A stretch of DNA of 64,000 bases from Streptomyces sp. CA-278952 (GTDB taxonomy: Bacteria > Actinomycetota > Actinomycetes > Streptomycetales > Streptomycetaceae). Positions 44,211 through 59,270 of the stretch are shown in pieces. The notes under the pieces are model-generated. The model had not been told where the DNA came from and did no database searches. It saw only the letters and a program-made list of their open reading frames with translations. A program made the translations under genes and the position numbers. The DNA lies in assembly GCF_028747205.1 (NCBI RefSeq), contig NZ_CP112880.1, positions 2,790,001 to 2,854,000 of the forward strand, in the 5' to 3' direction. The number at the start of each line of letters is the position of its first letter. Within the stretch, counting starts at the first letter, position 1.

Positions 44211-44221
44211 CGCCGGTACAT

Positions 44222-44233
44222 CTACGCGCGTAG
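44222..44233. promoter_or_regulatory. CTACGCGCGTAG operator, pnp promoter
   Basis: A perfect 12-bp palindrome, identical to sites before deoC and add. It covers the expected -35 position of a TACGCT box (44246-44251), which is 7 nt before the pnp GTG. Confidence 0.75.
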
Positions 44234-44258
44234 GGATTCAGCGGTTACGCTCGTCCGC

Positions 44259-45083
44259 GTGAACGCATCTGTTATTCCGGACAACATCCAGAGCGACCCG
44301 CGGGCAGCCGCCGCCGGGGCTGCCGCACGTCTGCGCGAGCTGACCGGCGCCGAGACCCATGACGTCGCCCTGGTCATGGGCTCCGGCTGGGCGCCCGCGG
44401 GCGAGGCACTCGGCGTCCCGGAGGCCGAGTTCCCCGTGACCGACCTGCCCGGCTTCCCGGCGCCCGCCGTCGAGGGCCACGGCGGCACGGTCCGCTCGTA
44501 CAGGATCGGCGAGAAGCGCGCCCTGGTCTTCCTCGGCCGCACGCACTTCTACGAGGGCCGGGGCGTCGCCGCCGTCGCCCACGGGGTCCGTACGGCGGTG
44601 GCCGCGGGCTGCGGGACCGTCATCCTGACGAACGGGTGCGGTGGGCTGCGCGAGGGCATGCGCCCGGGACAGCCGGTCCTGATCAGCGACCACATCAACC
44701 TGACGGCCACTTCCCCGATCATCGGCGCCAACTTCGTCGACCTGACCGACCTGTACTCCCCGCGGCTGCGCGCGCTGTGCAAGGAGATCGACGACACCCT
44801 CGAAGAGGGCGTCTACGTCCAGTTCCCCGGCCCGCACTACGAGACCCCGGCCGAGATCAACATGGTCCGGGTCATGGGCGGCGACCTGGTGGGCATGTCC
44901 ACGGTCCTGGAGGCCATCGCGGCCCGGGAGGCGGGCGCCGAGGTGCTCGGACTCTCCCTCGTCACCAACCTGGCGGCCGGCATGTCCGGAGAGCCCCTCA
45001 ACCACGAGGAGGTCCTCCAGGCCGGCCGCGACTCGGCGACCCGGATGGGCGCGCTGCTGGCCCGGGTGCTCGACCGCGTCTGA
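44259..45083 (+). CDS. Purine nucleoside phosphorylase
   Basis: 274 aa, trimeric-type PNP. It splits purine (deoxy)ribonucleosides with phosphate to base and (deoxy)ribose-1-phosphate. Motifs: [44 protein letters not shown] and the base-binding VTNLAAG. The GTG at 44259 has no ribosome site and a TACGCT box 7 nt upstream, which implies a leaderless message. Its operator is shared with deoC and add. The phosphomutase gene downstream handles its sugar product. Confidence 0.92.
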
Positions 45084-45091
45084 GCCGCGTG

Positions 45092-45163
45092 CACAGCCCG
45101 TCCGGCGTTTGAGGACCGGGGCCCGGGGCGGAGCCCCGGTTTCGGGAAGGGGCGGGGAGGGGA
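45092..45163 (+). repeat. 72-bp dispersed intergenic repeat, copy B
   Basis: Inverted copy of the element at 40752-40823, with 64 of 72 bases identical. It lies just after the pnp stop, where its palindromic core may act as a terminator. Confidence 0.85.
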
Positions 45164-45263
45164 TCAGCCCGCGCAGCGCACACCCCACCCCACCCCGCCC
45201 GCGCCCCGGACCACCCGCACCCACCCCCGTACCCCTTCCGCACACCCCCGAAAGGCGGCCCCC

Positions 45264-46904
45264 GTGCAGCACGACCTCATCGCGCAGGCCAGGACCTGGC
45301 TGGCCGAGGACCCCGACCCCGAGACCCGCGAGGAGCTGGGCGCGATCATCGAGGCGGGGGACGCCCAGGAGCTCGCCGCCCGCTTCGCGGGCACGCTCCA
45401 GTTCGGCACCGCCGGGCTGCGCGGGGAGCTGGGAGCCGGGCCGATGCGGATGAACCGGTCCGTGGTGATCCGGGCGGCGGCGGGCCTCGCCGCGTATCTG
45501 AAGGCCCAGGGCGAGGAGGGCGGGCTCGTCGTCATCGGCTACGACGCCCGCTACAAGTCGGAGGACTTCGCGCGCGACACCGCGGCCGTGATGACCGGCG
45601 CCGGGCTGCGCGCCGCCGTGCTCCCCCGCCCGCTCCCCACCCCCGTACTGGCGTACGCCATAAGGCACCTGGGAGCCGTCGCCGGGGTCGAGGTCACCGC
45701 CAGCCACAATCCGCCGCGCGACAACGGCTACAAGGTCTACCTCGGCGACGGCTCGCAGATCGTGCCTCCGGCCGACGGCGAGATCGCCGCCGCCATCGAC
45801 GCGGTCGGCCCGCTGGCGGGCGTGGAGCGCCCCGAGGACGGCTGGGAGACCCTCGGCGACGAGGTCCTCGCCGCCTACCTCGCCCGCACGGACGCGGTCC
45901 TGGCCCCCGACAGCCCCCGTACGGCACGCACCGTCTACACCGCGATGCACGGCGTCGGCACCTCGGTGCTGACCGCCGCGTTCGAGCGGGCCGGGTTCCC
46001 CGCGCCGGTGCTCGTCACCGAGCAGGCCGAGCCCGACCCCGCGTTCCCCACCGTGGCCTTCCCGAACCCGGAGGAGCCCGGCGCGATGGATCTCGCCTTC
46101 GCCACCGCGCGCCGGGCGGCACCGGACCTGGTCATCGCCAACGACCCGGACGCGGACCGCTGCGCCGTCGCCGTGCCCGACACCGCCACCGAGGGCGGCT
46201 GGCGGATGCTGCGCGGCGACGAGGTGGGCGCGCTGCTGGCCGCGCACCTGGTGGAGCGGGGCGTGAGCGGCGTGTTCGCCGAGTCGATCGTGTCGTCGTC
46301 GCTGCTCGGCCGGATCGCGGAAAAGGCGGGCCTCGGGTACGAGGAGACGCTGACGGGCTTCAAGTGGATCGCCCGGGTGGACGGCCTGCGGTACGGGTAC
46401 GAGGAGGCGCTCGGCTACTGCGTCGACCCCGAGGGCGTCCGCGACAAGGACGGCATCACCGCCGCCCTGCTCGTCGCCGAGCTCGCCTCCGTACTCAAGG
46501 AGCAGGGCCGTACGCTCCTGGATCTGCTGGACGACCTGGCGCTCACGCACGGTCTGCACGCCACCGACCAGCTCTCGGTGCGGGTGGAGGACCTGTCGGT
46601 CATCGCGGACGCCATGGCCCGGCTCCGCGAGCAGCCGCCGGCCGCGCTGGCCGGTCTCGCCGTCACCTCGGCCGAGGACCTGGCGCGGGGCACGGACAGG
46701 CTGCCGCCCACCGACGGGCTGCGCTACCAGTTGGAGAGCGCCCGGGTGATCGTCCGCCCGAGCGGCACCGAGCCGAAGCTGAAGTGCTACCTGGAGGTCG
46801 TCGTCCCGGTGGCGGACGCGGCCGGGCTGCCCGCCGCGCGGGCCCGGGGAGCCGAACTGCTCGCCGGGATCAAGCGGGACCTGGCGGTGGCGGCGGGCAT
46901 CTGA
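45264..46904 (+). CDS. Alpha-phosphohexomutase, probable phosphopentomutase
   Basis: 546 aa. The catalytic serine loop is VTASHNPPRDNGYKVY, the metal loop NDPDADRCAVA, the sugar loop GYEEALGYCVDPEGV, and the phosphate loop VRPSGTEPKLKCYLEV. The length and context match the PGM2-like branch, in which members convert (deoxy)ribose-1-phosphate to the 5-phosphate. That links PNP to DeoC, and no classical deoB is present. Older annotations would say phosphomannomutase. GTG start after GAAAGGCGG. Confidence 0.88.
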   Translation: MQHDLIAQARTWLAEDPDPETREELGAIIEAGDAQELAARFAGTLQFGTAGLRGELGAGPMRMNRSVVIRAAAGLAAYLKAQGEEGGLVVIGYDARYKSEDFARDTAAVMTGAGLRAAVLPRPLPTPVLAYAIRHLGAVAGVEVTASHNPPRDNGYKVYLGDGSQIVPPADGEIAAAIDAVGPLAGVERPEDGWETLGDEVLAAYLARTDAVLAPDSPRTARTVYTAMHGVGTSVLTAAFERAGFPAPVLVTEQAEPDPAFPTVAFPNPEEPGAMDLAFATARRAAPDLVIANDPDADRCAVAVPDTATEGGWRMLRGDEVGALLAAHLVERGVSGVFAESIVSSSLLGRIAEKAGLGYEETLTGFKWIARVDGLRYGYEEALGYCVDPEGVRDKDGITAALLVAELASVLKEQGRTLLDLLDDLALTHGLHATDQLSVRVEDLSVIADAMARLREQPPAALAGLAVTSAEDLARGTDRLPPTDGLRYQLESARVIVRPSGTEPKLKCYLEVVVPVADAAGLPAARARGAELLAGIKRDLAVAAGI

Positions 46905-46923
46905 CGCACCGCTTTCACGCCGA

Positions 46924-46955
46924 AGGGCCGGCCCCTCCCGGGAGGGGCCGGCCCT
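46924..46955. terminator. Bidirectional terminator
   Basis: Perfect 16-bp inverted repeat (46924-46939 and 46940-46955) between the phosphomutase and PH-domain genes. Confidence 0.85.
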
Positions 46956-46979
46956 CCGGCATCCGGTCGCCCCGGCCTC

Positions 46980-47618
46980 TCAGCCGAGCGCCCCCACCAC
47001 CGCGAGCAGGACGGCCCCCGCGACGGCCGGGGCGATCACCTCGTAGGCCCAGCGCACGGAGCCCCGGTCCGCGCCCTCGGCGGTCGTGTCGCCGGCCCGC
47101 TCGGCGAGGTCCCGAAGATCGCGGACCGTCTGGTCGGCGGACGCGGTGCGCGCGGCGGAGTCGCGGACGTCGGCGCTGACCGACGTACGGCCGTAGGGGT
47201 CGTCGTGGGCCGCGCGGGCCGCGCCGCGCGCCGCGCGCTTGCGGGCGCGCAGGGAGACCGGGATCGCCCACAGCTGGTACTTCGTGCCGTCCTGGGTGAG
47301 CAGCTCGGAGGAGTACGAGGCCCGTACGTCGGCGACCTCGGTCCAGGGCAGCTGGATCGTCCGGAACGGGTTGCGGACCCGGATGTGCTCGTCGTCCGCG
47401 AAGACGGCGGGCCGCAGGGTGAACGCCACGACCAGCGGCACCACGAGGAGCAGCGCGGCCGCCGCCAGCCAGGGCATCCGTCCCTCGCCCCGGATCATGG
47501 CGTCGCCGGCCATCCAGGCGATCAGCAGGAGCAGCAGCGACCCGCAGACCAGTGCGGCGACGGAACGGTAGGTCCGTGTCGCGGGGGGCGGCTCTGCGGG
47601 AGGTGTGGGGCTCGTCAT
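46980..47618 (-). CDS. PH-domain membrane protein
   Basis: 212 aa. Two helices (AALVCGSLLLLLIAWMAG and PWLAAAALLLVVPLVVAFTL) precede a bacterial PH-like domain (VFADDEHIRVRNPFRTIQLPWTEVADVRA). A linker follows, then a last hydrophobic helix (VIAPAVAGAVLLAVVGAL). The ATG at 47618 begins a Pro-rich N-terminus. These bPH proteins are common in actinobacteria and of unknown function. The gene lies divergent from deoC but is probably unrelated. Confidence 0.8.
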   Translation of the reverse strand: MTSPTPPAEPPPATRTYRSVAALVCGSLLLLLIAWMAGDAMIRGEGRMPWLAAAALLLVVPLVVAFTLRPAVFADDEHIRVRNPFRTIQLPWTEVADVRASYSSELLTQDGTKYQLWAIPVSLRARKRAARGAARAAHDDPYGRTSVSADVRDSAARTASADQTVRDLRDLAERAGDTTAEGADRGSVRWAYEVIAPAVAGAVLLAVVGALG

Positions 47619-47775
47619 GGGGCCGATTCTGCCTGACGGGCGCGGAGGGTGGCGCAGCGGACGCACCGCACGGCCGCCCGCCGCCGGGCCGCGGCGTCCG
47701 GAGTGTGGGCGCGCGGGGGCGGGGTGGGATGCGGGGTGCGGGACGCACGGATGGCCTGGCCCCCTGTACAGGTCG

Positions 47776-47787
47776 CTACGCGCGTAG
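47776..47787. promoter_or_regulatory. CTACGCGCGTAG operator, deoC promoter
   Basis: Second copy of the 12-bp palindrome. It ends one base before the -10 box TATGCT (47789-47794), which is 6 nt before the GTG. A bound repressor would block RNA polymerase. Confidence 0.75.
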
Positions 47788-47800
47788 ATATGCTCCCCTG

Positions 47801-48754
47801 GTGACCATGCCCACCACTGCTCCCGCATTTTCCGACGCGACGGCGTCCGACAGTGCGCTGCGCCGCTTCCTGTTCGGGCTGCCCGGCGTCGACGCCGTCG
47901 GCCTCGAAGCGCGCGCCGCCGCCCTCGGAACCCGTTCGATCAAGACGACGGCCAAGGCGTACGCCATCGATCTCGCCATCTCGATGATCGACCTGACGAC
48001 GCTGGAAGGCGCGGACACCCCGGGCAAGGTCCGGGCTCTCGCCGCCAAGGCCGTCAACCCCGACCCGACCGACCGCACCGCCCCGCGCACCGCCGCGGTC
48101 TGCGTCTATCCCGACATGGCGGCCACCGCCGCCGCCGCGCTGGCCGGCTCCGGTGTGAAGGTGGCGTCCGTGGCGACCGCCTTCCCGGCGGGCCGCGCCG
48201 CGCTCGACGTCAAGCTCGCGGATGTCCGCGACGCCGTGGCGGCCGGGGCCGACGAGATCGACATGGTGATCGACCGGGGGGCGTTCCTCTCGGGCCGGTT
48301 CCTGAAGGTGTACGAGGAGATCCTCGCCGTGAAGGCGGAGTGCGGCCCCGCCCGCCTCAAGGTGATCTTCGAGACCGGTGAGCTGTCCACGTACGACAAC
48401 ATCCGCCGGGCCTCCTGGATCGGGATGCTGGCGGGCGCCGACTTCATCAAGACCTCGACCGGCAAGGTGGCCGTCAACGCCACCCCCGCCAACACGCTCC
48501 TCATGCTGGAGGCCGTCCGCGACTTCCGGGCGCAGACCGGCGTGCAGATCGGCGTCAAGCCGGCCGGCGGGATCCGCACCACCAAGGACGCGGTGAAGTT
48601 CCTGGTGCTGGTGAACGAGACCGCGGGCGAGGACTGGCTGGACCCGCACTGGTTCCGGTTCGGTGCGTCCAGCCTGCTCAACGACCTGCTGATGCAGCGC
48701 CAGAAGCTCAGCACCGGCCGTTACTCCGGCCCCGATTACGTGACGGTGGACTGA
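47801..48754 (+). CDS. deoC: Deoxyribose-phosphate aldolase
   Basis: 317 aa, class I aldolase. It cleaves 2-deoxyribose-5-phosphate to glyceraldehyde-3-phosphate and acetaldehyde. The Schiff-base lysine is K217 in ADFIKTSTGK, and VKPAGGIRTTKDA supplies the second conserved lysine. It has an N-terminal extension of about 50 residues, as in actinobacterial and eukaryotic DERA. The GTG at 47801 is leaderless-type; ATG 47807 is an alternative. The aldehyde dehydrogenase gene follows after 5 bp. Confidence 0.93.
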   Translation: MTMPTTAPAFSDATASDSALRRFLFGLPGVDAVGLEARAAALGTRSIKTTAKAYAIDLAISMIDLTTLEGADTPGKVRALAAKAVNPDPTDRTAPRTAAVCVYPDMAATAAAALAGSGVKVASVATAFPAGRAALDVKLADVRDAVAAGADEIDMVIDRGAFLSGRFLKVYEEILAVKAECGPARLKVIFETGELSTYDNIRRASWIGMLAGADFIKTSTGKVAVNATPANTLLMLEAVRDFRAQTGVQIGVKPAGGIRTTKDAVKFLVLVNETAGEDWLDPHWFRFGASSLLNDLLMQRQKLSTGRYSGPDYVTVD

Positions 48755-48759
48755 TAGCC

Positions 48760-50199
48760 ATGGCATCCGCATTCGAGTACGCACCGGCGCCGGAGTCCCG
48801 CGCCGTCGTCGACATCGCCCCCTCCTACGGGCTGTTCATCGACGGCGAGTTCGCCGAGGCCGCCGACGGCAAGGTCTTCAAGACCCTCTCGCCGAGCAGC
48901 GAGGAAGTCCTCTCCGAGGTCGCGCGCGCCGGCGCGGCGGACGTGGACCGGGCCGTGAAGGCGGCCCGCAAGGCGTTCGAGAAGTGGTCGGCGCTGCCCG
49001 GCTCCGAGCGCGCCAAGTACCTGTTCCGGATCGCCCGGATCATCCAGGAGCGCAGTCGCGAGCTCGCCGTTCTCGAAACCCTCGACAACGGCAAGCCGAT
49101 CAAGGAGACCCGCGACGCGGACCTCCCACTGGTCGCGGCGCACTTCTTCTACTACGCGGGCTGGGCCGACAAGCTGGACCACGCGGGGTACGGCGCGAAC
49201 CCCCGTCCGCTGGGTGTGGCCGGACAGGTCATCCCGTGGAACTTCCCGCTGCTGATGCTCGCGTGGAAGATCGCCCCGGCGCTCGCCACGGGCAACACCG
49301 TGGTCCTGAAGCCCGCCGAGACGACCCCGCTCAGCGCTCTGTTCTTCGCGGACATCTGCCGCCAGGCGGGGCTCCCCAAGGGCGTCGTCAACATCCTGAC
49401 CGGGTACGGGGACGCGGGCGAGGCCCTCGTCACGCACCCCGACGTGAACAAGGTCGCCTTCACCGGCTCGACCGCCGTCGGCAAGGCCATCGCGCGCTCC
49501 GTCGCGGGCACGGACAAGAAGGTCACCCTGGAGCTGGGCGGCAAGGGCGCGAACATCGTGTTCGACGACGCGCCGATCGACCAGGCCGTCGAGGGCATCG
49601 TCACCGGGATCTTCTTCAACCAGGGCCAGGTCTGCTGCGCCGGTTCCCGGCTGCTCATCCAGGAGTCGGTCCAGGACGAGGTGCTGGACGCCCTGAAGCG
49701 CCGGCTGTCCACGCTGCGCCTGGGCGACCCGCTGGACAAGAACACCGACATCGGTGCGATCAACTCCGCCGAGCAGCTCGCGCGGATCACCTCCCTGGTG
49801 GAGACCGGCGAGGCGGAGGGCGCGGAGCGCTGGAGCGCCCCCTGCGAACTGCCTTCGTCCGGCTACTGGTTCGCCCCGACGCTCTTCACGAACGTCACCC
49901 AGGCACACACGGTGGCCCGCGACGAGATCTTCGGCCCGGTGCTCTCCGTCCTCTCCTTCCGCACCCCGGACGAGGCGGTCGCCAAGGCGAACAACAGTCA
50001 GTACGGCCTCTCGGCCGGCATCTGGACGGAGAAGGGCTCCCGCATCCTCGCGGTGGCGAACAAGCTCCGCGCGGGCGTCGTCTGGGCCAACACGTTCAAC
50101 AAGTTCGACCCGACGTCGCCGTTCGGCGGCTACAAGGAGTCGGGCTACGGCCGCGAGGGCGGCCGCCACGGCCTGGAGGCGTACCTCGATGTCCGATAA
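48760..50199 (+). CDS. Aldehyde dehydrogenase (complete, catalytic)
   Basis: 479 aa. All ALDH features are present: VIPWNFPLLMLAWKIAPALATGNTVVLKPAE, FTGSTAVGKAI, the catalytic Glu in VTLELGGKGANIV, and the catalytic Cys in FFNQGQVCCAGSR. It lies 5 bp after deoC, which suits oxidation of the acetaldehyde that DeoC releases. The 3' end overlaps the next gene by 11 bp. It is closest in feel to the catalytic half of the ALDH16 family. Confidence 0.9.
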   Translation: MASAFEYAPAPESRAVVDIAPSYGLFIDGEFAEAADGKVFKTLSPSSEEVLSEVARAGAADVDRAVKAARKAFEKWSALPGSERAKYLFRIARIIQERSRELAVLETLDNGKPIKETRDADLPLVAAHFFYYAGWADKLDHAGYGANPRPLGVAGQVIPWNFPLLMLAWKIAPALATGNTVVLKPAETTPLSALFFADICRQAGLPKGVVNILTGYGDAGEALVTHPDVNKVAFTGSTAVGKAIARSVAGTDKKVTLELGGKGANIVFDDAPIDQAVEGIVTGIFFNQGQVCCAGSRLLIQESVQDEVLDALKRRLSTLRLGDPLDKNTDIGAINSAEQLARITSLVETGEAEGAERWSAPCELPSSGYWFAPTLFTNVTQAHTVARDEIFGPVLSVLSFRTPDEAVAKANNSQYGLSAGIWTEKGSRILAVANKLRAGVVWANTFNKFDPTSPFGGYKESGYGREGGRHGLEAYLDVR

Positions 50200-51106
50200 C
50201 AACCGACTTGGCGTCTTCAAGACCTACAAGCTGTACGTCGGGGGCAAGTTCCCCCGCTCCGAGAGCGGCCGGGTGTACGAGGTGAGCGACTCCAAGGGCC
50301 AGTGGCTGGCGAACGCGCCGCAGTCCTCCCGCAAGGACGCGCGCGACGCGGTCGTGGCCGCGCGCAAGGCGTTCGGCGGGTGGTCGGGCGCGACCGCGTA
50401 CAACCGGGGCCAGGTCCTCTACCGCGTCGCGGAGATGCTGGAGGGCCGCAGGGACCAGTTCGTCCGTGAGGTGGCCGCCTCCGAGGGGCTGTCGAAGTCC
50501 AAGGCGGCGGCCGCGGTGGACACGGCGATCGACCGCTGGGTCTGGTACGCGGGCTGGACCGACAAGATCGGGCAGATCTCCGGCGGGGCGAACCCGGTCG
50601 CGGGCCCCTTCTTCAACCTCTCCACCCCCGAGCCGACGGGCGTGGTCGCGGTCCTCGCGCCGCAGAAGTCGTCGTTCCTCGGCCTGGTCTCGGTGATCGC
50701 CCCGGTCATCGCGACCGGCAACACGGCGGTCGTCGTCGCCTCGGCCGACGCCCCGCTGCCCGCGCTGTCGCTGGGCGAGGTGCTGGCCACCTCCGACGTG
50801 CCCGGCGGCGTGGTCAACATCCTGTCGGGCGTCACGGCGGAGCTGGCGGCCCCGCTCGCCGCCCACCAGGACGTCAACGCGATCGACCTCACCGGTGCGG
50901 ACGCCGCCCTGGCGAAGGAGCTGGAGATCGCGGCGGCGGACAACCTGAAGCGCGTCCTGCGCCCGGGCCCTGCTCACGCGGACGGCGCGGCGGACTCCGC
51001 GGACTGGTCGGCCTCCCCGGACACGCACCGCCTGACGGCGTTCCTGGAGACCAAGACGGTGTGGCATCCGACGGGCGCCCTGGGAGCCGCCGGCTCCTCG
51101 TACTGA
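50189..51106 (+). CDS. Truncated aldehyde dehydrogenase without active site
   Basis: 305 aa. It aligns with the first part of ALDH (KLYVGGKFPRSESGRVYEV, VVAVLAPQKSSFLGLVSVIAPVIATGNTAVVVAS, GGVVNILSG) but ends before the catalytic Cys and oligomerisation region. No GQxC motif exists. It overlaps the complete ALDH gene by 11 bp, so the two are coupled. It resembles the non-catalytic second domain of ALDH16 proteins, here as a separate gene. Presumed partner subunit, by inference. Confidence 0.85.
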   Translation: MSDNNRLGVFKTYKLYVGGKFPRSESGRVYEVSDSKGQWLANAPQSSRKDARDAVVAARKAFGGWSGATAYNRGQVLYRVAEMLEGRRDQFVREVAASEGLSKSKAAAAVDTAIDRWVWYAGWTDKIGQISGGANPVAGPFFNLSTPEPTGVVAVLAPQKSSFLGLVSVIAPVIATGNTAVVVASADAPLPALSLGEVLATSDVPGGVVNILSGVTAELAAPLAAHQDVNAIDLTGADAALAKELEIAAADNLKRVLRPGPAHADGAADSADWSASPDTHRLTAFLETKTVWHPTGALGAAGSSY

Positions 51107-51122
51107 CGCACACCCGGTGCCC

Positions 51123-51160
51123 GGACGGGGCCGCCCTCCCACCCCGGGGCGGCCCCGTCC
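51123..51160. terminator. Bidirectional terminator
   Basis: Perfect 14-bp stem (51123-51136 with 51147-51160) and 10-nt loop, between the convergent ALDH and secreted-protein genes. Confidence 0.75.
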
Positions 51161-51181
51161 GCCGTCTCTCCGCGCCGGGCT

Positions 51182-51601: not shown

Positions 51602-51727
51602 GTTTCCACCTGGTCGATCTCGTCGGGTAATCGTCTGTGCGCGCAGAGTAGTTGAGGTGTGATGCTGGATACCAACAGGAGGCCCGAGGGGTCCCCTGCG
51701 CGGCTCAATGCCTCACACTTCTGTTCT

Positions 51728-52372
51728 GTGAGTTCCCAACCGATCCCGACCCGCGTCGTGCTGCTCGCGGGCCCTTCCGGCTCCGGCAAGTCCGTCCTCG
51801 CCGCCCGCACCGGCCTGCCGGTGCTGCGCCTGGACGATTTCTACAAGGAGCACGACGACCCGACGCTGCCCCGGGTACCGGGCTCCACGGACATCGACTG
51901 GGACTCCGCCGGGTCCTGGGACGCGGACGCGGCGGTGGCCGCCATCGCCGAGCTGTGCCGGTGCGGCCGTACGGACGTCCCGGTGTACGACATCGCCACC
52001 AGCTCCCGTACGGACCATGAGGCCTTCCACATCGAGCGGTCACCGCTGTTCGTGGCGGAGGGCATCTTCGCGGCGGACATAGTGGAGCGCTGCCAGGAAC
52101 TGGGCCTGCTGGCCGACGCGCTGTGCCTGCGCGGCCGCCCGTCCACCACGTTCCGCCGCCGCCTGGTGCGGGATCTGCGCGAGGGCCGCAAGTCGGTGCC
52201 GTTCCTGCTGCGGCGGGGCTGGCGGCTGATGCGGGCCGAACGCCGCATCGTGGCCCGCCAGACGGCCCTGGGGGCGCACCCCTGCGGCAAGGAGGAGGCG
52301 CTGGGGCGGTTCGCCGCCGCAGCGGCGGGGCGGTGCCGCAGGGCGGGCGTGGGGGCGCGGGTCCCGGAGTAG
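51728..52372 (+). CDS. Uridine kinase-like P-loop protein
   Basis: 214 aa. The P-loop is VVLLAGPSGSGKSVLAA, followed by LRLDDFYKEHDDPTLPR, the substrate loop of uridine kinases. FVAEGIFAADIV is the second core strand, and RRLVRDLREGRKSV forms a lid. It would phosphorylate uridine or cytidine, matching the nucleoside theme. The GTG at 51728 is the only reasonable start before the P-loop, and no ribosome site is visible. The substrate is likely but not certain. Confidence 0.82.
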   Translation: MSSQPIPTRVVLLAGPSGSGKSVLAARTGLPVLRLDDFYKEHDDPTLPRVPGSTDIDWDSAGSWDADAAVAAIAELCRCGRTDVPVYDIATSSRTDHEAFHIERSPLFVAEGIFAADIVERCQELGLLADALCLRGRPSTTFRRRLVRDLREGRKSVPFLLRRGWRLMRAERRIVARQTALGAHPCGKEEALGRFAAAAAGRCRRAGVGARVPE

Positions 52373-52703
52373 GGACGGGCGCCCCCGGGCTCGCGCTCAG
52401 CCGGTGGGGGCCGCGCAGCCGAAGGTCTTGGCTGTCCGCACTTGCTCGCTTCCTGGTGCGAAGGGCCGGGCGTCTCCAGGCCCATTGGCCCCACCGACCC
52501 GCAGTGACCCCACGGAAAGCGGGGCCGTACAGGACCCCCCGGCCCGTACGACCCCGCTGTGTTCCCCCCGTGACCCGCGCCTCCCCCGAAGCGACGGGCC
52601 GTTCCCCCGTGGTGGTTCCCCCGAACCCCCTCGGTCCCCGTTCTTACTGCTCCCCCGTACTTCCCCCGTGGCCCCCGCCTCCCCCGGGACGGAGGGCCCA
52701 GCC
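52373..52703. other. C-run-rich intergenic region, 331 bp
   Basis: Convergent udk-like and sigQ genes end on either side. About 52560-52700 carries ten or so C4-C6 runs (variants of TTCCCCCGTGG and CTCCCCCG). On the sigQ transcript strand these are G runs, which may form G-quadruplexes. No gene is seen. Confidence 0.55.
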
Positions 52704-53471
52704 TCAGGCCACCAACTCGCCGAAGGACTCCTGCTCGTCACGTCCGAAGCTGAGGACCTCGTCCTCGCGCAGCCGGCGCAGGGAGCGCCAGATGCTGGAC
52801 TTCACCGTGCCGACACTGATGTCGAGGATCGACGCGATCTCCGGGTCGGTGCGGCCCTCGTAGTACCGCAGGACCAGCATCGTGCGCTGGAGTTCGGGCA
52901 GCCGGGCGAGCGCCTGCCACAGCACCGCCCGCAGCTCCGTGCCGCGCATCGCGTCCGTGTCGCCCACCGTCTCCGGCAGCTCCTCGGTCGGGTATTCGTT
53001 GAGCTTGCGCCTGCGCCAGGCGCTGATGTGCAGATTGGTCATGGTGCGGCGCAGATAGCCGCCGACCGCCGCCTTGTCGCTGATCCGGTCCCACGCCCGG
53101 TAGGTCGAGAAGAGGGCGCTCTGCAGCAGGTCCTCGGCCTCGAACCGGTCACCGGTCAGGTGGTAGGCGGTCGCGTACAGGGAGGCCCGTCGCTCCCGGA
53201 CGTAGGCCGTGAACGCCGCTTCGGCGTCCGCGTCTCCCGTCCGGGCCGTGCGGTCCCCCGTGGCCTCCCCGTACGCGCTCGCCGCCCCCTTGGGCGCGTC
53301 GAGCACCGTCATGTACGGCATGCGCACCTGCTCCGCCGCCGTCTGGTGCTGACGCCCGGCGCTCCGAACACACCCCCGCATGTTCATGACGCCGGACTTC
53401 TCCGTGCTCCGCCCGACGTCGTGGAGGCGCGTGACAACTGCGCTTGAGCTGGTGCTGTGCAGTGCGTTCAT
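52704..53471 (-). CDS. sigQ: RNA polymerase sigma factor SigQ
   Basis: 255 aa SigE-family ECF sigma factor. Region 2 is RRASLYATAYHLTGDRFEAEDLLQSALFSTYRAW, and region 4 LQRTMLVLRYYEGRTDPEIASILDISVGTVKSSIWRSLRRLR. It is divergent from afsQ1, exactly as sigQ in S. coelicolor, where it is an AfsQ1 target linked to antibiotic control. The frame is G/C3-biased back to the ATG at 53471 (AGGGGG upstream), so I keep the roughly 50-residue N-terminal extension. The ATG at 53321 would give a 205-aa form. Confidence 0.88.
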   Translation of the reverse strand: MNALHSTSSSAVVTRLHDVGRSTEKSGVMNMRGCVRSAGRQHQTAAEQVRMPYMTVLDAPKGAASAYGEATGDRTARTGDADAEAAFTAYVRERRASLYATAYHLTGDRFEAEDLLQSALFSTYRAWDRISDKAAVGGYLRRTMTNLHISAWRRRKLNEYPTEELPETVGDTDAMRGTELRAVLWQALARLPELQRTMLVLRYYEGRTDPEIASILDISVGTVKSSIWRSLRRLREDEVLSFGRDEQESFGELVA

Positions 53472-53555
53472 CTCGCGCCCCCTATCGGTGGAGTCCGTTC
53501 GTTCCCTGTTGTCGAAGAGCTTGCCGGGGCAGTTTCATGGCGCTGTCCCCCGACT

Positions 53556-53571
53556 GTCACAGGCCTGTCAC
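53556..53571. promoter_or_regulatory. AfsQ1-type binding site
   Basis: GTCAC-AGGCCT-GTCAC exactly fits the GTnAC-N6-GTnAC direct repeat that I recall for AfsQ1. It lies between sigQ and afsQ1, about 83 bp before the afsQ1 start and 85 bp before sigQ. Confidence 0.8.
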
Positions 53572-53653
53572 AGGGGTGGTCGGGGCCGTGCCCGGACAAT
53601 CGGACCGGGCCACAGGTCGAACTGAAGCGCCACCATGGGCCAGAATGACGTTC

Positions 53654-54331
53654 GTGCCTTTCCTGTTGCTGATCGAGGACGACGACGCCATCCGCACGGC
53701 CCTCGAACTCTCGTTGTCACGCCAGGGCCACCGTGTGGCCACCGCGGCGACGGGAGAGGACGGCCTGGAGCTGCTGCGCGAGCAGCGGCCCGACCTGGTC
53801 GTGCTGGATGTGATGCTGCCCGGGATCGACGGTTTCGAGGTGTGCCGGCGTATCCGCCGCACCGACCAACTGCCGATCATTCTGCTGACCGCGCGCAGCG
53901 ACGACATCGACGTCGTGGTGGGACTGGAGTCCGGCGCGGACGACTATGTGGTGAAGCCTGTCCAGGGACGGGTGCTCGACGCCCGGATCCGGGCGGTGCT
54001 GCGCCGGGGGGAGCGCGAGTCGACCGACTCCGCGACCTTCGGCAACGTGGTGATCGACCGCTCCGCCATGACCGTCACCAAGGACGGTGAGGATCTGCAG
54101 CTCACGCCGACCGAGCTGCGGCTCCTGCTGGAGCTGAGCCGCCGGCCCGGCCAGGCCCTGTCCCGGCAGCAGTTGCTGCGGCTGGTGTGGGAGCACGACT
54201 ACCTGGGCGACTCCCGCCTGGTGGACGCCTGTGTGCAGCGGCTGCGCGCGAAGGTGGAGGACGTACCGTCCTCGCCGACCCTGATCCGTACGGTGCGGGG
54301 CGTGGGCTACCGGCTGGACTCGCCTCAGTGA
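53654..54331 (+). CDS. afsQ1: Response regulator AfsQ1
   Basis: 225 aa OmpR family. Receiver: acidic IEDDD, phosphorylated D52 in VVLDVMLP, the Thr in LLTARS and the Lys in DDYVVKPVQG. C-terminal winged helix: LTPTELRLLLELSRRPGQALSRQQLLRLVWEHDYLGDSRLVDACVQRLRAKVED. The sequence is nearly what I recall for S. coelicolor AfsQ1 (225 aa). GTG 53654 gives that length; ATG 53645 is in frame. It governs antibiotic production, nitrogen responses and sigQ. It overlaps afsQ2 (GTGA). Confidence 0.95.
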   Translation: MPFLLLIEDDDAIRTALELSLSRQGHRVATAATGEDGLELLREQRPDLVVLDVMLPGIDGFEVCRRIRRTDQLPIILLTARSDDIDVVVGLESGADDYVVKPVQGRVLDARIRAVLRRGERESTDSATFGNVVIDRSAMTVTKDGEDLQLTPTELRLLLELSRRPGQALSRQQLLRLVWEHDYLGDSRLVDACVQRLRAKVEDVPSSPTLIRTVRGVGYRLDSPQ

Positions 54332-55857
54332 CCGAATCCGCCAAGCGGTCCCTGCGCGCCGGTCTGCGCTGGACCAGTCTGCGGCTGCGCCTGGTCGTGG
54401 TGTTCGCGCTGGTGGCGCTGACGGCCGCGGTCTCCGCTTCGGGGATCGCGTACTGGCTCAACCGCGAGGCCGTGCTGACCCGTACCCAGGACACCGCGCT
54501 CGACGACTTCCGGCGGCAGATGCAGGACACCGCGGCGGAGCTGCCGACCCGTCCCACCAAGGACGACCTCCAGCGGGCCGCCGGTCAGATGGCGTCCAGC
54601 GGCCCGGGTTACAGCGTGCTGCTGGAGGCCGAACGCGAGCGCGGCAAGCCGATCGTGGGCTACTCCGACCTGGACAGCTTCACCCGGGCCGATGTTCCGG
54701 ACTCGTTGCAGAAGCAGGTGGCCCGCAAGCAGTCGCTGACGTCGAGCAACGAGCACGAGTACCACCTGTTCTGGCAGCGGACGAGCATCGCGGGCACGCC
54801 GTATCTGGTCGCCGGTACGCGGATCATCGGCGGCGGCCCGACCGGTTACATGCTCAAGTCCCTCGACCAGGAACGGCAGGACCTCAACTCGCTGGCCTGG
54901 TCGCTGGCGATCGCCACCGCCCTCGCGCTGGTCGGCTCGGCGCTGCTGGCGCAGGCCGCCGCGACGACGGTGCTGCGTCCGGTGCAGCGGCTCGGCGACG
55001 CGGCCCGCAAGCTCGGCGAGGGCAAGCTCGACACCCGCCTGGAAGTGTCCGGCACCGACGAACTCGCCGATCTCTCCCGTACGTTCAACAGGACGGCGAG
55101 CTCGCTGGAGAAGAAGGTCGCGGACATGAGCGCGCGGGAGGAGGCGAGCCGCCGGTTCGTCGCCGACATGTCGCACGAGCTGCGGACCCCGCTGACCGCG
55201 ATCACGGCGGTGGCCGAGGTGCTGGAGGACGAGGCGGACACCCTCGACCCGATGATCGCGCCGGCCGTGCATCTGGTGGTCAGCGAGACCCGGCGGCTCA
55301 ACGACCTGGTGGAGAACCTGATGGAGGTGACCCGCTTCGACGCGGGCACGGCCCGGCTGGTGCTGGACACGGTCGACGTCGCCGACCAGGTGACCGCGTG
55401 CATCGACGCGCGGGCCTGGCTGGACGCGGTGGACCTGGACGCGGAGCGCGGCATGATGGTCCGGCTCGATCCGCGCCGGCTGGACGTGATCCTGGCCAAC
55501 CTGATCGGCAACGCCCTCAAGCACGGGGGTTCGCCGGTGGGTGTGCGGGTGCGGACCGAGGGCGAGGAGCTGGTCATCGAGGTACGGGACCACGGTCCGG
55601 GCATCCCCGAGGACGTGCTGCCGCACGTCTTCGACCGGTTCTACAAGGCCAGCGCCTCCCGGCCGCGGTCGGAGGGCAGCGGGCTCGGCCTCTCCATCGC
55701 CATGGAGAACGCGCACATCCACGGCGGTGACATCACGGCGGCGAACTCCCCGGACGGCGGTGCCGTCTTCGAACTGCGGCTGCCGCGCGACGCCGAGAAG
55801 CTCGCGGACCACGGTGAACCGGGGGCGGACGCCCCGGACGGGAACGGGACGACGTGA
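54328..55857 (+). CDS. afsQ2: Sensor histidine kinase AfsQ2
   Basis: 509 aa. One N-terminal helix (LVVVFALVALTAAVSASGIAYWL), an extracytoplasmic sensor of about 130 residues, a second helix (LAWSLAIATALALVGSALLAQAA), then HAMP. The H box is MSHELRTPLTAI (H283), with N box NLIGNALKHGG and G boxes DHGPGIPEDVLPHVFDRFYKA and GSGLGLSIA. It phosphorylates AfsQ1. Its start overlaps the afsQ1 stop by 4 bp, and its own end overlaps the lipoprotein gene. Confidence 0.95.
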   Translation: MTESAKRSLRAGLRWTSLRLRLVVVFALVALTAAVSASGIAYWLNREAVLTRTQDTALDDFRRQMQDTAAELPTRPTKDDLQRAAGQMASSGPGYSVLLEAERERGKPIVGYSDLDSFTRADVPDSLQKQVARKQSLTSSNEHEYHLFWQRTSIAGTPYLVAGTRIIGGGPTGYMLKSLDQERQDLNSLAWSLAIATALALVGSALLAQAAATTVLRPVQRLGDAARKLGEGKLDTRLEVSGTDELADLSRTFNRTASSLEKKVADMSAREEASRRFVADMSHELRTPLTAITAVAEVLEDEADTLDPMIAPAVHLVVSETRRLNDLVENLMEVTRFDAGTARLVLDTVDVADQVTACIDARAWLDAVDLDAERGMMVRLDPRRLDVILANLIGNALKHGGSPVGVRVRTEGEELVIEVRDHGPGIPEDVLPHVFDRFYKASASRPRSEGSGLGLSIAMENAHIHGGDITAANSPDGGAVFELRLPRDAEKLADHGEPGADAPDGNGTT

Positions 55858-56489
55858 AGCGCGGCTATGTCACGTACCGGCGAGGCCCGCTCCGGCGGCA
55901 TACGGCAGCCTCGCTGGCGGCCGTACTGGCGGCCGCGGCGCTGGTCTCCGGGTGCGGGATCCGTACGACCTCGGTGCCGGTGGACGCGGGGCCCGCGCCC
56001 TCCCGGGTGCCGTGCCGGCTGTCCTCCTCGGACGTCGCCACCCGGTCGCCGGACCACGTGAGCACCACCGTGTATCTGGTGTGCACCTCGCAGCTGGTCA
56101 CCGCGGAACGTCCGGTGGCGGCGGACGCGACCGGCGCCGACCCCCTGGCGGTCGCCCGGGCGCTCCTGGAGGAGGTCCAGCAGGCGCCGACCGCGGACGA
56201 GCGGCGGGCCGGGTTCACCACCGCGGTTCCGGCGGGGCTGCGGGTGTCCCCGGCCCGGGACGGCGACCCGGCGGGCGCCGTGCGCCTCAGCAGCCAGCCG
56301 GAGGACCTGTCGGCGGAGGCGCTGGCCCAGCTGGTGTGCACGTACGCGGAGAGCGAGACGCTGGTCCGGGACGGCTCGGTGGTCCTGGGCGGGCCCGGGG
56401 ACTACCCACCGCGCGGCTATCTGTGCACCTCGCAGACGAAGTCCCGGCCGGGCGACCTGGCGACGCCGGACGGCGTCCGGCTGGACTGA
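55854..56489 (+). CDS. Lipoprotein of the afsQ operon
   Basis: 211 aa. The GTG overlaps the afsQ2 stop by 4 bp. The lipobox LVSGC follows a basic, hydrophobic leader, so it is membrane-anchored outside. Mature sequence has GerMN-like features (DPLAVARALLEEVQQAPTADERRAGFTTAVPAGL) and four further cysteines, in PCRLSSS, YLVCTSQ, QLVCTYA and GYLCTSQ. By position it may tune AfsQ2 sensing. The role is not established as far as I know. Confidence 0.82.
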   Translation: MKRGYVTYRRGPLRRHTAASLAAVLAAAALVSGCGIRTTSVPVDAGPAPSRVPCRLSSSDVATRSPDHVSTTVYLVCTSQLVTAERPVAADATGADPLAVARALLEEVQQAPTADERRAGFTTAVPAGLRVSPARDGDPAGAVRLSSQPEDLSAEALAQLVCTYAESETLVRDGSVVLGGPGDYPPRGYLCTSQTKSRPGDLATPDGVRLD

Positions 56490-56607
56490 CCCGGTTTCCG
56501 GGCGGTCGGGCGGCCCTCCCGGTCCGGGAGGAGGGGCCGCCCGGGAGAGCCGCCCGGGAGGCGGGCCGCTGCGGCGCGGAACCGATCCTGCCGGTCGCGG
56601 CGTCTTG

Positions 56608-57180
56608 GTGGACGTGCGTCACAGTTCGGACGGCGAGACCGTCATCCACTTCCGCGCGGCGGGGGTCACTCTCCTTGCCGCGCATCTGCTGTTCGTCGGG
56701 TGGCTGACGCTGCGCCCGCTGGACGTTCCCTGGATCATGGCGGCGAATTTCGAGCCGCTCGCCGGGATCAGGGCGGACCTGGCGCTGGGACCGGCCGAGG
56801 CGGCCCGCCGGATCGGCGGGGCGTTGTCGCTGCTGGCCCCACTGGGGGTGCTGCTGCCGATGGCCGGGGGCCGGGTCTTCGTCTCCCCCTGGGTCTCACT
56901 GCTGCGTACGGTCGCCGCCGGCGCGCTGATCTCGCTGGCCATCGAGCTGGGCCAGACCGGGGTGCCCGGTCAGATCGTCGACATCGACTCGCTGCTGCTG
57001 AACACCACGGGGGTGGTGCTGGCCCATCTGCTGGTCGTCCCGGTCTGCCGGGCGCGGCTGCGCCGCCGGGGTGTGCCGGGGGTGCGGGACCTGCCCTGCT
57101 ACCGGCAGGAGACCCGTCTCAGGGACGAGGCCCCTGGGGGGTCGACCCCGACGATTACCGGGGTCGGCCTCGCTCCGTAG
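56608..57180 (+). CDS. VanZ-like family membrane protein
   Basis: 190 aa. Four hydrophobic segments (GVTLLAAHLLFVGWLTLRPLDVPW, GALSLLAPLGVLLPMAGG, TVAAGALISLAIELGQ, NTTGVVLAHLLVVPV) and the ExxQ-containing ISLAIELGQTGVPGQIVDIDSLLLNTTG are the VanZ signature. VanZ relatives lower teicoplanin binding, but most chromosomal homologues are uncharacterised. The start is uncertain (TTG 56605, GTG 56608 or GTG 56614), none with a good ribosome site. Confidence 0.8.
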   Translation: MDVRHSSDGETVIHFRAAGVTLLAAHLLFVGWLTLRPLDVPWIMAANFEPLAGIRADLALGPAEAARRIGGALSLLAPLGVLLPMAGGRVFVSPWVSLLRTVAAGALISLAIELGQTGVPGQIVDIDSLLLNTTGVVLAHLLVVPVCRARLRRRGVPGVRDLPCYRQETRLRDEAPGGSTPTITGVGLAP

Positions 57181-57273
57181 AGCGATGCTTTGTCCCCCTT
57201 CGCGGCGCACCATGGATACATCGGGGAGCGCACGAGGCCGCTCCTCACACCACGGTTCGCGAAGGAGCCCACC

Positions 57274-57480
57274 ATGGCCGCACTTGTCCGCCCCCGCGAA
57301 GGCCGCATGATCGGCGGAGTGTGCGCGGGTCTCGCCCGGCGCTTCGGTATCTCCGCCAAAACGATGCGCGTCATCTTCGTCGTCTCCTGTCTGCTGCCCG
57401 GCCCGCAGTTCCTGCTCTACGTGGCGCTGTGGGCACTGCTGCCGTCGGAGAAGTCCGCCTCCTCCGCGACGGCTTGGTGA
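57274..57480 (+). CDS. PspC domain small membrane protein
   Basis: 68 aa. A complete PspC domain: LVRPREGRMIGGVCAGLARRFGISAKTMRVIFVVSCLLPGPQFLLYVALWALLPSE, with one to two membrane-spanning segments. PspC proteins work in envelope-stress signalling. Stand-alone copies like this are common in streptomycetes. GAAGGAG is a few nt before the ATG at 57274. A 19-bp terminator follows. Confidence 0.9.
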   Translation: MAALVRPREGRMIGGVCAGLARRFGISAKTMRVIFVVSCLLPGPQFLLYVALWALLPSEKSASSATAW

Positions 57481-57531
57481 CGCGCCGGACCACGGGGAGC
57501 AGACGGAGTGCAGACGGGGAGCAGATACGCA

Positions 57532-57572
57532 CAGTGGGGCGCACACCCTGGATCAGGGTGTGCGCCCCACTG
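57532..57572 (+). terminator. Terminator after the PspC gene
   Basis: Perfect 19-bp arms (57532-57550 and 57554-57572) around GAT, also followed by the convergent small secreted-protein gene. Confidence 0.85.
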
Positions 57573-57650
57573 GCATGTACGGGTGGCGCCGGTGGCCCGG
57601 CGCGCGCGTGCCGGGGCGTGGCCGCCCGGCCTGGGTCGGCCGACAGGCTC

Positions 57651-57953
57651 TCAGCCGCCGAGCGGGATCCCGTTGGCGGTGAGGCCCTTGGTGGGCAGTC
57701 CGCCGAGCAGGCCGGTGACCGGGGCGGCCGCGTCGGTGGCGTCGCCGCCGAGGACCTTGTCGACGGTCTCCTGGACCGGCGCGTTCTGCGCCGACTTGGC
57801 GACGGTGTCGAGCGCCATCGTCGAGACGGGGAGCACTCCGGCCGCGGTCTCCAGCGGCAGCGAGGGGGCGGCGGAGGCGCTGCCGGCGGCGGCAGCGGCG
57901 AAAGCGGCGCCGAGAGCGGCGACACCGAGAGTCTTGGCAGCAGACTTCTTCAT
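57651..57953 (-). CDS. Small secreted protein
   Basis: 100 aa. The signal peptide (KKSAAKTLGVAALGAAFAAAAAGSASAA) is cleaved near residue 29. The mature part has no cysteines and ends VTGLLGGLPTKGLTANGIPLGG. AAGGA lies about 10 nt before the ATG. In composition and length it resembles the product of 51182-51601. Streptomycetes carry many such small Gly/Leu/Thr-rich exported proteins. Function unknown. Confidence 0.75.
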   Translation of the reverse strand: MKKSAAKTLGVAALGAAFAAAAAGSASAAPSLPLETAAGVLPVSTMALDTVAKSAQNAPVQETVDKVLGGDATDAAAPVTGLLGGLPTKGLTANGIPLGG

Positions 57954-58041
57954 GGCGAATTCATCCTTGGGGAAGGGGATGTGAGCGGCTCTGCAAGCTA
58001 GCCATCCCGCTGCCCCTGTCGCAAACATCCCGACACGCGGA

Positions 58042-58072
58042 AAAGGGCCGGGATTGCATTTCCCGGCCCTTT
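58042..58072 (-). terminator. add terminator
   Basis: Perfect 12-bp stem (58042-58053 with 58061-58072) and 7-nt loop, just past the add stop on the minus strand. Confidence 0.8.
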
Positions 58073-58087
58073 CGCCTGTCGGAGGCC

Positions 58088-59242
58088 TCAGCCCTTGGAG
58101 GCCGCGGAACCGCTGGTCACAGCGGTCTGGCGGAAGAGCCACTCGGACTTCAGCTCCGCGTAGCCGGGCTTGACGACATCGTTGATCATGGCGAGACGTT
58201 CGTCGAAAGGAATGAAAGCTGATTTCATCGCATTGACTGTGAACCACTGCATGTCATCGAGCGTGTATCCGAAGGTCTCGGTCAGCCGCTCGAATTCCCC
58301 GGTCATGCTCGTGCCGCTCATCAGCCGGTTGTCCGTGTTCACGGTGATCCGGAAGTGCAGCTTGCGCAGCAGTCCGATCGGGTGCTCGGCGTACGAGGTG
58401 GCCGCGCCGGTCTGGAGGTTGGAGGTCGGGCACATCTCCAGCGGGACGCGCTTGTCCCGTACGTAGGAGGCGAGGCGGCCGAGGGTGACCGAGCCGTCCT
58501 CGGCGATCTCGATGTCGTCGATGATCCGCACCCCGTGGCCGAGGCGGTCGGCGCCGCACCACTGGAGGGCCTGCCAGATCGACGGCAGGCCGAAGGCCTC
58601 GCCCGCGTGGATGGTGAAGTGGTTGTTCTCGCGCTTGAGGTACTCGAACGCGTCGAGGTGGCGGGTGGGCGGGAACCCGGCCTCGGCGCCCGCGATGTCG
58701 AAGCCGACGACGCCCTGGTCGCGGTAGCTGTTGGCGAGTTCGGCGATCTCCAGGGCGCGGGCCGCGTGCCGCATCGCGGTGAGGAGGGCGCCGACGCGGA
58801 TGCGGTGTCCGCCCGCGCGAGCGATGCGCTCACCCTCGCGGAAGCCCTCGTTGACGGCCTCGACGACCTCTTCGAGGGTCAGGCCGCCCTCCAGGTGCTG
58901 CTCGGGGGCGTAGCGGATCTCGGCGTAGACGACGCCGTCCTCGGCGAGGTCCACGGCGCACTCGGCGGCCACCCGGAACAGTGCGTCACGGGTCTGCATG
59001 ACGGCGCAGGTGTGGGCGAACGTCTCCAGGTAGCGCTCCAGCGAACCGGAGTCGGCGGCCTCGCGGAACCAGGTGCCGAGCTTGTCGGCCTCGGTCTCGG
59101 GGAGGGAGTCGTAACCCTGCGCGCGGGCCAGCTCGACGATGGTGCCCGGCCGCAGGCCGCCGTCGAGGTGGTCGTGGAGCAGCACCTTGGGGGCGCGCCG
59201 GATCTGGTCGGAATCAGGGACGTTCGGGGTCTGGCTCGTCAT
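58088..59242 (-). CDS. add: Adenosine deaminase
   Basis: 384 aa. It converts (deoxy)adenosine to (deoxy)inosine, the substrate of PNP. The metal-binding [19 protein letters not shown] carries the first two His, EIRYAPEQH follows, then [10 protein letters not shown] and GHGVRIIDD with the catalytic Glu/His. [16 protein letters not shown] supplies the last Asp. ATG 59242 has no ribosome site; TAGAGT (minus strand, 59249-59254) is 6 nt upstream, so it is leaderless-type. The CTACGCGCGTAG operator precedes it. Confidence 0.95.
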
Positions 59243-59258
59243 CTTGGCACTCTAGCGC

Positions 59259-59270
59259 CTACGCGCGTAG
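59259..59270. promoter_or_regulatory. CTACGCGCGTAG operator, add promoter
   Basis: Third copy of the palindrome, 4 nt upstream of the TAGAGT -10 box on the minus strand. It is further flanked by GCGC on both sides. Confidence 0.75.

Follow-up and report, generated by a model that had tools for sequence, protein, structure and literature searches.

We analysed a 64,000 bp stretch of the chromosome of Streptomyces sp. CA-278952 (NZ_CP112880.1, positions 2790001–2854000; hereafter the window, with the genome denoted G000) in which three genes of nucleoside salvage are each preceded by the same perfect 12 bp palindrome, CTACGCGCGTAG. The first copy (44222–44233; 14-mer TCTACGCGCGTAGG at 44221–44234) is located upstream of pnp, which encodes a purine-nucleoside phosphorylase on the forward strand (44259–45083; TIGR01698 equivalog over cut-off). 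A −10-like box TACGCT (44246–44251, forward strand) follows 12 nt downstream of the palindrome, 7 nt before the GTG start codon at 44259, and a TAnnCT-type box (mostly TACCCT or TACGCT) occupies this position in most relatives. The second copy (47776–47787; 14-mer GCTACGCGCGTAGA) precedes the deoxyribose-phosphate aldolase gene deoC (47801–48754, forward strand; TIGR00126 equivalog over cut-off), with the box TATGCT (47789–47794, forward strand) 1 nt after the palindrome and 6 nt before the GTG at 47801. The third copy (59259–59270) stands before add, the adenosine deaminase gene on the reverse strand (58088–59242; NF006847 equivalog over cut-off). Here the box TAGAGT (59254–59249, reverse strand) is 4 nt after the palindrome and 6 nt before the ATG at 59242. 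The original prediction, made from the letters of the window, had described TAnnnT boxes followed after 6–7 nt by start codons without a ribosome site. Boxes and starts are as described for all three genes, and a ribosome-binding site does not fit into a gap of 6–7 nt. Behind pnp lies a phosphoglucomutase/phosphomannomutase-family gene without a site of its own (45264–46904, forward strand), a candidate phosphopentomutase gene, while an aldehyde dehydrogenase gene directly behind deoC (48760–50199, forward strand; Pfam Aldedh) is likely to belong to the same operon as deoC.

The three copies are the only exact matches in the window, as had been claimed, and none of 100 dinucleotide shuffles of the window contained three. 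In the complete chromosome (8,211,675 bases) the exact palindrome is likewise found at these three places only, and a reversed control pattern is not found at all. The exact palindrome is thus not scattered over the genome, a point on which the original prediction had made its case depend. Allowing one mismatch gives 18 further places compared with 22 for the control, so that single-mismatch copies are mostly due to chance and those outside the cluster call for individual caution. Two of the 18, however, are found less than 16 kb from the add copy, upstream of deoA and nupA.

Within Streptomyces the exact motif is present in 61/61 genomes with two to six copies each (zero to three for the control). 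In a sample of the class it was found in 28/28 genomes of the genus compared with 10/268 other members, and in the family in 80/81 genomes representing 16 of the 17 genera. The 81st family genome, G362, contains degenerate copies: CTACGCGCGTTA before pnp and bmpA, and CTACGCGAGTAG before deoC. No shared palindrome was seen in 13 nucleoside-cluster loci outside the family. Three exact copies in G146, a member of another family, adjoin no nucleoside gene, one of them being located in a low-complexity GC stretch, and we take them as chance. In L045, L065 and L149 the copy falls within a coding-looking open reading frame (ORF), as it probably does in L068, and these copies were set aside. The idea that the motif as a whole is a chance or codon-related repeat draws on single-mismatch copies being as common as in the reversed control. 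It is refuted by the exact-copy counts in this chromosome, the genus, the class and the family, and exact copies stand before nucleoside genes in most loci examined.

The three genes are not the complete set. Just outside the window, near-copies precede the thymidine phosphorylase gene deoA (CTATGCGCGTAG, 2860628), nupA, encoding the ATPase of a nucleoside-type ATP-binding cassette (ABC) transporter (CTACGCGTGTAG, 2865161), and the lipoprotein gene bmpA (CTACGCGCGTTA, 2866556), the last variant being found again in 15 upstream regions of relatives. The regulon of pnp, deoC and add that had been proposed therefore stands for its members and was drawn too small. From the sites of these six genes we built a 14 bp weight matrix and called a site at a score of at least 15. 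Counts refer to genomes with an upstream region, excluding matches below 45% identity and those whose 300 bp upstream run off the locus. Sites precede pnp in 12/12, deoC in 9/9, add in 10/10 and bmpA in 7/7 genomes, nupA in 6/7 (G362 being without) and deoA in 2/7; these counts are partly circular, since the same genes supplied the training sites of the matrix and many of the loci were chosen for containing an exact copy. The conservation before orthologues that the original prediction had called for is thus observed for its three genes. In the five genomes without a deoA site, deoA lies within about 110 bp behind cdd. No matrix site was found before the mutase (0/12), aldehyde dehydrogenase (0/10), nupC (0/8), cdd (0/7) or M20 peptidase (0/6) genes, nor before the adjacent lysR (0/9) and tetR (0/4) genes, which were rejected as sources of the regulator. 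Where lpdA (1/12) or a PH-domain gene (3/8) has a site, the intergenic region is common with pnp or deoC. Outside the 12-mer, strong conservation is confined to the next upstream base (T or G). The pattern is well supported as a conserved shared operator, most likely that of a repressor.

Measured back from the start codon, the operator centres are about 19 nt away in deoC, 22 nt in add and 32 nt in pnp, which places them over the −35 and −10 positions or between the two. Such a place inside the core promoter is typical of a repressor. The spacing from site to gene varies (in most cases 10–25 nt at deoC, add and pnp, and 45–95 nt at bmpA), whereas the 14 bp are constant across genes and the flanks are little conserved, a combination more in keeping with a repressor than with an activator. 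The nearness to promoters and the perfect symmetry could be cited for an activator site or a hairpin element, but such a reading has a slim chance given these positions and variable distances. The original prediction had one repressor acting through leaderless promoters. A conserved regulon, control by a single trans-acting protein and, for its three genes, leaderless-type starts are supported, but bmpA, nupA and deoA have longer leaders.

As the nearest candidate regulator it had named a DeoR-family gene in the window (40832–41794, reverse strand; Pfam DeoRC and HTH_DeoR over cut-off), with the reservations that the dyad upstream of this gene differs and that the regulator may be elsewhere. 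Escherichia coli DeoR has such a role as a nucleoside regulator, and by analogy the protein would bind the palindrome and be released by ribose or deoxyribose phosphates. The gene lies two genes from pnp, lpdA and pnp adjoin deoR in 9/9 cluster loci with a deoR match (83–93% identity, one a short end fragment), and the protein contains the DeoRC sensor domain. Against this, none of 11 genomes has a site before deoR and the scores of 43 deoR upstream regions (29 from the family and 14 others) do not exceed 5.9. At 15 DeoR orthologue loci outside the family (58–70% identity, one 48%) there is no exact or single-mismatch copy; sugar-type ABC ATPase genes (27–33% identity to NupA) occur in five of them and pnp or deoC in none. 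With the operator missing from its own promoter and from the neighbourhoods of its orthologues outside the family, we rejected DeoR as the regulator and rate this role as very improbable; the reservation that the regulator may be elsewhere was right. The deoR promoters of most family members (upstream of position 41794 in the window; L089–L104 and L134–L146) instead share a different conserved block, CTATACCACTT...GAACAACTTC...GCTGAAAGCAGACGGTC...TTACTGTC, which ends in a leaderless-type start and is probably DeoR's own or another control element. Some of the orthologues outside the family (L119, L120, L121, L123 and L133) are near sugar-type ABC transporter genes, so in those organisms the ligand of the DeoR lineage may be a sugar phosphate.

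The motif has the layout of a LacI-family operator, with a central CG and an A four bases from the centre, and may be compared with the CcpA pattern TGTAAGCGCTTACA. Of five LacI matches in G374, a 5.4 Mb family member that is 96% complete, two have orthologues in the second small genome, G362. One of the two has the helix STAVVSYVIN. With the G362 protein as the query it gives one match in each of 22/22 family genomes at 68–77% identity (100% for its own match), and outside the family relatives at 41–47% in 8/48 genomes. The G000 protein as the query finds matches in 65/394 class genomes, 40 of its own genus and 25 others at no more than 46% identity; in three of the 40 a more distant paralogue is present as well. 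The other protein common to both small genomes (L190/L203) has a different helix and no site, and was rejected.

In G000 the candidate gene (G000:C1:4338881–4339918; L219) lies directly downstream of glnR, about 1.5 Mb outside the window. Its product combines an N-terminal LacI helix–turn–helix (PF00356, 51.1 bits against a cut-off of 27) with a periplasmic-binding-protein-like effector domain (PF13377, 102 bits, cut-off 26.5; PF00532, 82.6 bits, cut-off 22.2). The gene just upstream encodes a GlnR_1st domain (PF21695, 150.5 bits) and a protease-like ORF was recognized by eye downstream. By this neighbourhood (glnR upstream, protease next) the candidate is assigned as the orthologue of SCO4158, which published work places downstream of glnR, tying the protease gene SCO4157 to the SCO4158 promoter (PMC9739823, PMC3878966). 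It has also been suggested in print that SCO4158 might regulate glnR (PMC9739823), an SCO4158 probe is listed in an ArgR band-shift table (PMC5839063) and one paper calls SCO4158 'the ccpA gene' (PMC4365011). A literature search, for which subscription papers were mostly out of reach, returned no paper in which nucleoside genes are connected with the palindrome or with SCO4158, and a term search of PMC2276206 and PMC6627660 gave nothing on the motif. SCO4158-type regulators, conserved beside glnR, were without a regulon in the literature found.

The candidate's own promoter contains a motif-like site (for example TTCACCCGCGTAGACT) in 18/22 family genomes, at a fixed place over the −10 box and with scores of 7.5–15.5. 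For comparison, the highest score among other LacI promoters is −0.4 (n = 19, five further loci without a clear start being excluded), the deoR promoters stay at or below the 5.9 given above (n = 43), and random 100 bp stretches, with true sites left in, give 2.6 at the 95% point and 9.7 at the 99% point. A score of at least 7.5 was also found in 80/80 named loci, these being the best 80 of 546 and close relatives.

Distant homologues of the candidate carry related sites in their own promoters. Eight of them suggested the pattern TCWANNCGNNTWGA; six of the eight carry at least 9 of its 10 fixed letters, a post hoc count. With the pattern fixed and the same threshold, a newly fetched set gave matches in 16/20 promoters, 15 of them perfect. 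The 20 comprise 17 homologues from outside the genus and three Streptomyces paralogues, and were taken from 23 new sequences by excluding the three weakest. Among the other LacI genes of G362 and G374, including the five loci without a clear start, the pattern occurs in 1/24 (Fisher p = 1.7e-7 against 16/20). In the 22 of 28 homologues with a site, one residue of the recognition helix covaries with the operator at the sequence level: T goes with TCTA (12/12), P (7/7) and D (1/1) go with TCAA, and V (2/2) is found where one side reads TCTA and the opposite side TCAA. In 22/22 family genomes the candidate's residue is T, and the operator predicted for T, TCTANNCGNNTAGA, equals the motif TCTACGCGCGTAGA. 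Such a code would allow operators to be assigned from sequence to other members of this LacI subfamily. In three Streptomyces genomes (L330, L331 and L334) the promoter of a second LacI gene of the subfamily contains a palindrome of its own, GCAACACGAGTTGC or TCTAATCGTTTAGA. In the f19 homologues L230 and L232 two adjacent operators form a 28 bp inverted repeat, TCAACACGAGTTGCGCAATTCGTGTTGA, of which L233 has a variant.

Our preferred explanation, to which we give a probability of about 0.8, is that the palindrome is the operator of the SCO4158-type LacI repressor encoded behind glnR, which would control the nucleoside-scavenging genes. The sites, their conservation, their restriction to the family, the motif-like site in the candidate's promoter and the operator code of its homologues are established as far as sequence comparison goes; from there we infer binding by the SCO4158-type protein, repression rather than activation, and a ligand. 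In the proposed mechanism a LacI dimer would bind the 14 bp site tCTACG-CG-CGTAGa, over or between the promoter elements, and block transcription of the scavenging genes. Predicted targets are bmpA, the nupA operon with cdd, deoA, add, pnp and deoC. A metabolite signalling nucleoside supply or purine need would release the repressor. If correct, this would account for the way in which streptomycetes turn on the recycling of nucleosides, as on mycelium lysis, and would offer a single control point for the engineering of nucleoside antibiotics and purine supply.

Several observations weigh against this assignment. The per-gene site counts are partly circular, as stated above, and repression is read from operator position only. 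The candidate gene is far from the cluster. Its promoter is without the site in four of 22 genomes (L207, L226, L227 and L228) and 11 of the 22 promoters attain a score of 9.7, the 99% point for random stretches. The site is also lopsided and overlaps the −10 box TAGACT, so part of its conservation may be that of the promoter. Few orthologue groups carry the operator code (the 28 homologues form eight clusters, five of them with a site), and six of the 28 have no site at the threshold, four with helix residue T and two with P, the latter two having GCAACACGAGTTGC. In a ΔargR mutant the DeoC protein is lower (PMC3293853), while the genes for a secreted nucleotidase and for the adenosine deaminase SCO5662 are higher; these opposite effects indicate that other regulators act too. 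The screen for rivals covered the LacI genes of two genomes. A different transcription factor of the family, be it LacI, TetR, GntR or other, could thus bind the motif, with the SCO4158-type protein only looking right, and the four promoters without a site would fit this. We regard it as unlikely: the operator class matches the own promoters of the candidate's LacI subfamily, and of the remaining LacI genes in the 5.4 Mb genome a single one, whose helix differs, is matched by an orthologue in the second small genome.

CytR of γ-proteobacteria controls deo, cdd and nucleoside uptake and acts together with CRP at spaced half-sites, whereas the operator predicted for the candidate is one compact 14 bp palindrome inside the promoter. 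The SCO4158-type repressor would resemble CytR in being a LacI-family protein over genes of nucleoside transport and catabolism, as described for the CytR regulon of γ-proteobacteria (PMC3454398), but at 158.9 bits the candidate stays below the CytR equivalog cut-off of 436. E. coli PurR, the LacI-family regulator of purine biosynthesis, is a relative in sequence (PDB entry 1bdh, E = 3.8e-35 for the G362 orthologue) and in some family members the motif precedes purSQL or purNH; here the candidate scores 174.9 bits against a cut-off of 501 and the main targets are salvage and catabolic genes. The closest solved structures by sequence are those of CcpA (PDB entry 1rzr, 3.5e-43) and RbsR (PDB entry 9ny7, 2e-39). 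The scores are again below the cut-offs (156.2 bits against 442.35 for CcpA; 182.5 against 382 for RbsR, NF047341), and the predicted regulon concerns nucleosides, not general carbon control. UriR of Corynebacterium (NF051853), a LacI regulator of another actinobacterium that is nucleoside-related by name, likewise gives a score below cut-off (115 bits, cut-off 550). ScnR1 and GvmR of S. caniferus are LacI proteins that bind 14 bp palindromes with a central CG, but their motif (RTSATACGHATRAY/RTCATWCGYATGAY) differs, and we rejected a regulator of the ScnR1/SCO1642 type on this ground; ScnR1 is grouped with SCO1642 at 68% identity (PMC12292694). NupR of Bacillus thuringiensis regulates nucleoside permease genes but belongs to the GntR/HutC family (PMC9430930).

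One published contrast shows the three original genes rising together. In RNA sequencing of S. lividans, 136 of 7,496 genes were up in a cellulase-producing strain (PMC6302529), and among these, in transcripts per million, are the orthologues SCO4917 (pnp), which rises from 5 to 64, SCO4914 (deoC), from 7 to 69, and SCO4901 (add), from 11 to 49. All three are mentioned once each in the main text, in Table 3 of that paper. The result bears on the joint response that the original prediction had made a condition, but the contrast is not one of nucleoside addition. In another comparison Add and three putative nucleases are more abundant in S. coelicolor than in S. lividans (PMC7244524).

A stricter symmetric pattern, YWAYGCGCGTWR, occurs at 11 places in the G000 chromosome compared with at most one for its control. 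Five of the 11 are within the nucleoside cluster and three precede secreted enzymes of nucleic-acid breakdown, namely an ExeM/NucH-like secreted nuclease (L007/L337), a secreted 5′-nucleotidase (L148) and a 2′,3′-cyclic-nucleotide phosphodiesterase/3′-nucleotidase-like gene (L150); for these three genes the best NCBIfam models score below cut-off and two are cut by the locus end. Another site of this type, again CTATGCGCGTAG, lies 29 nt upstream of the gene for a secreted M23 peptidase (L151, G000:C1:7745671), and two are in or near unrelated coding sequence (L004 and L149). One-mismatch sites precede purSQL (CTACCCGCGTAG, L015), an operon with a dihydropyrimidinase gene (L005/L338; TIGR02033 over cut-off) and a purine/uracil-type permease gene (CTCCGCGCGTAG, L012). 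At L005, L007 and L015 the listed start of the ORF precedes the site, and a later start is presumed.

In other family members exact copies are found before a second adenosine deaminase gene outside the cluster (L049, L050, L051, L054 and L058; five genomes); in two genomes this gene shares the contig at a distance of megabases, and in three it is on another contig. Exact copies also precede a secreted 5′-nucleotidase gene (L056, where a GNAT-like gene on the opposite side is nearer), purSQL (L057, named by likeness to L015) and purN and/or purH (L061, L062 and L079), so that purSQL and the 5′-nucleotidase gene have a site in two genomes each. The regulon may thus reach secreted nuclease, nucleotidases, the dihydropyrimidinase operon and purSQL as possible further targets, with sites in one to three genomes.

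Two readings of the ligand fit these genes. Induction by nucleosides or their sugar phosphates fits deoC and deoA, while derepression on purine starvation fits purSQL, purNH and the permease. For the core targets we lean towards induction by a putative nucleoside-derived metabolite. On a wider view, the SCO4158-type protein would be a family-wide master repressor of nucleic-acid scavenging, from nuclease through nucleotidases, importer and phosphorylases/deaminases to the breakdown of deoxyribose and pyrimidine bases, in some genera also of de novo purine synthesis, with the subfamily code T = TCTA and P/D = TCAA. We consider the chances of this to be even. A master repressor of this kind would connect the recycling of DNA from dead mycelium with development and nitrogen control.

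Some further copies and sites have no evident place among these genes. In the window, a weak site, TCTGTGCGCGCAGA (51634–51647), before a uridine-kinase-like gene (51659) is found in 1/8 genomes and is probably chance. CTACGCGCGTAC, right at the beginning of a gene that by eye resembles rpoB (L011, G000:C1:3090929), is also taken as chance. An exact copy lies 17 nt before the start of an HAD hydrolase gene in other family members (L042 and L055), near a small XRE-type gene and a methionine aminopeptidase-like gene (named by eye). In three genomes of genus g127 (L059, L060 and L063) the exact motif is located 40–49 nt upstream of the gene for a secreted protein without a confident catalytic domain.

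Finally, nupA in G000 (L016, near 2865050, reverse strand) apparently has no ordinary start codon: no in-frame ATG, GTG or TTG occurs from the upstream stop to the codons after the Walker motif. The block AGGAG(AG)TGCGYC-ATC, with ATA in L085, is kept in 14/14 nupA loci, namely G000 and 13 relatives (L021, L025, L036, L037, L038, L044, L046, L053, L074, L076, L085, L086 and L166), which suggests a rare ATC or ATA start.

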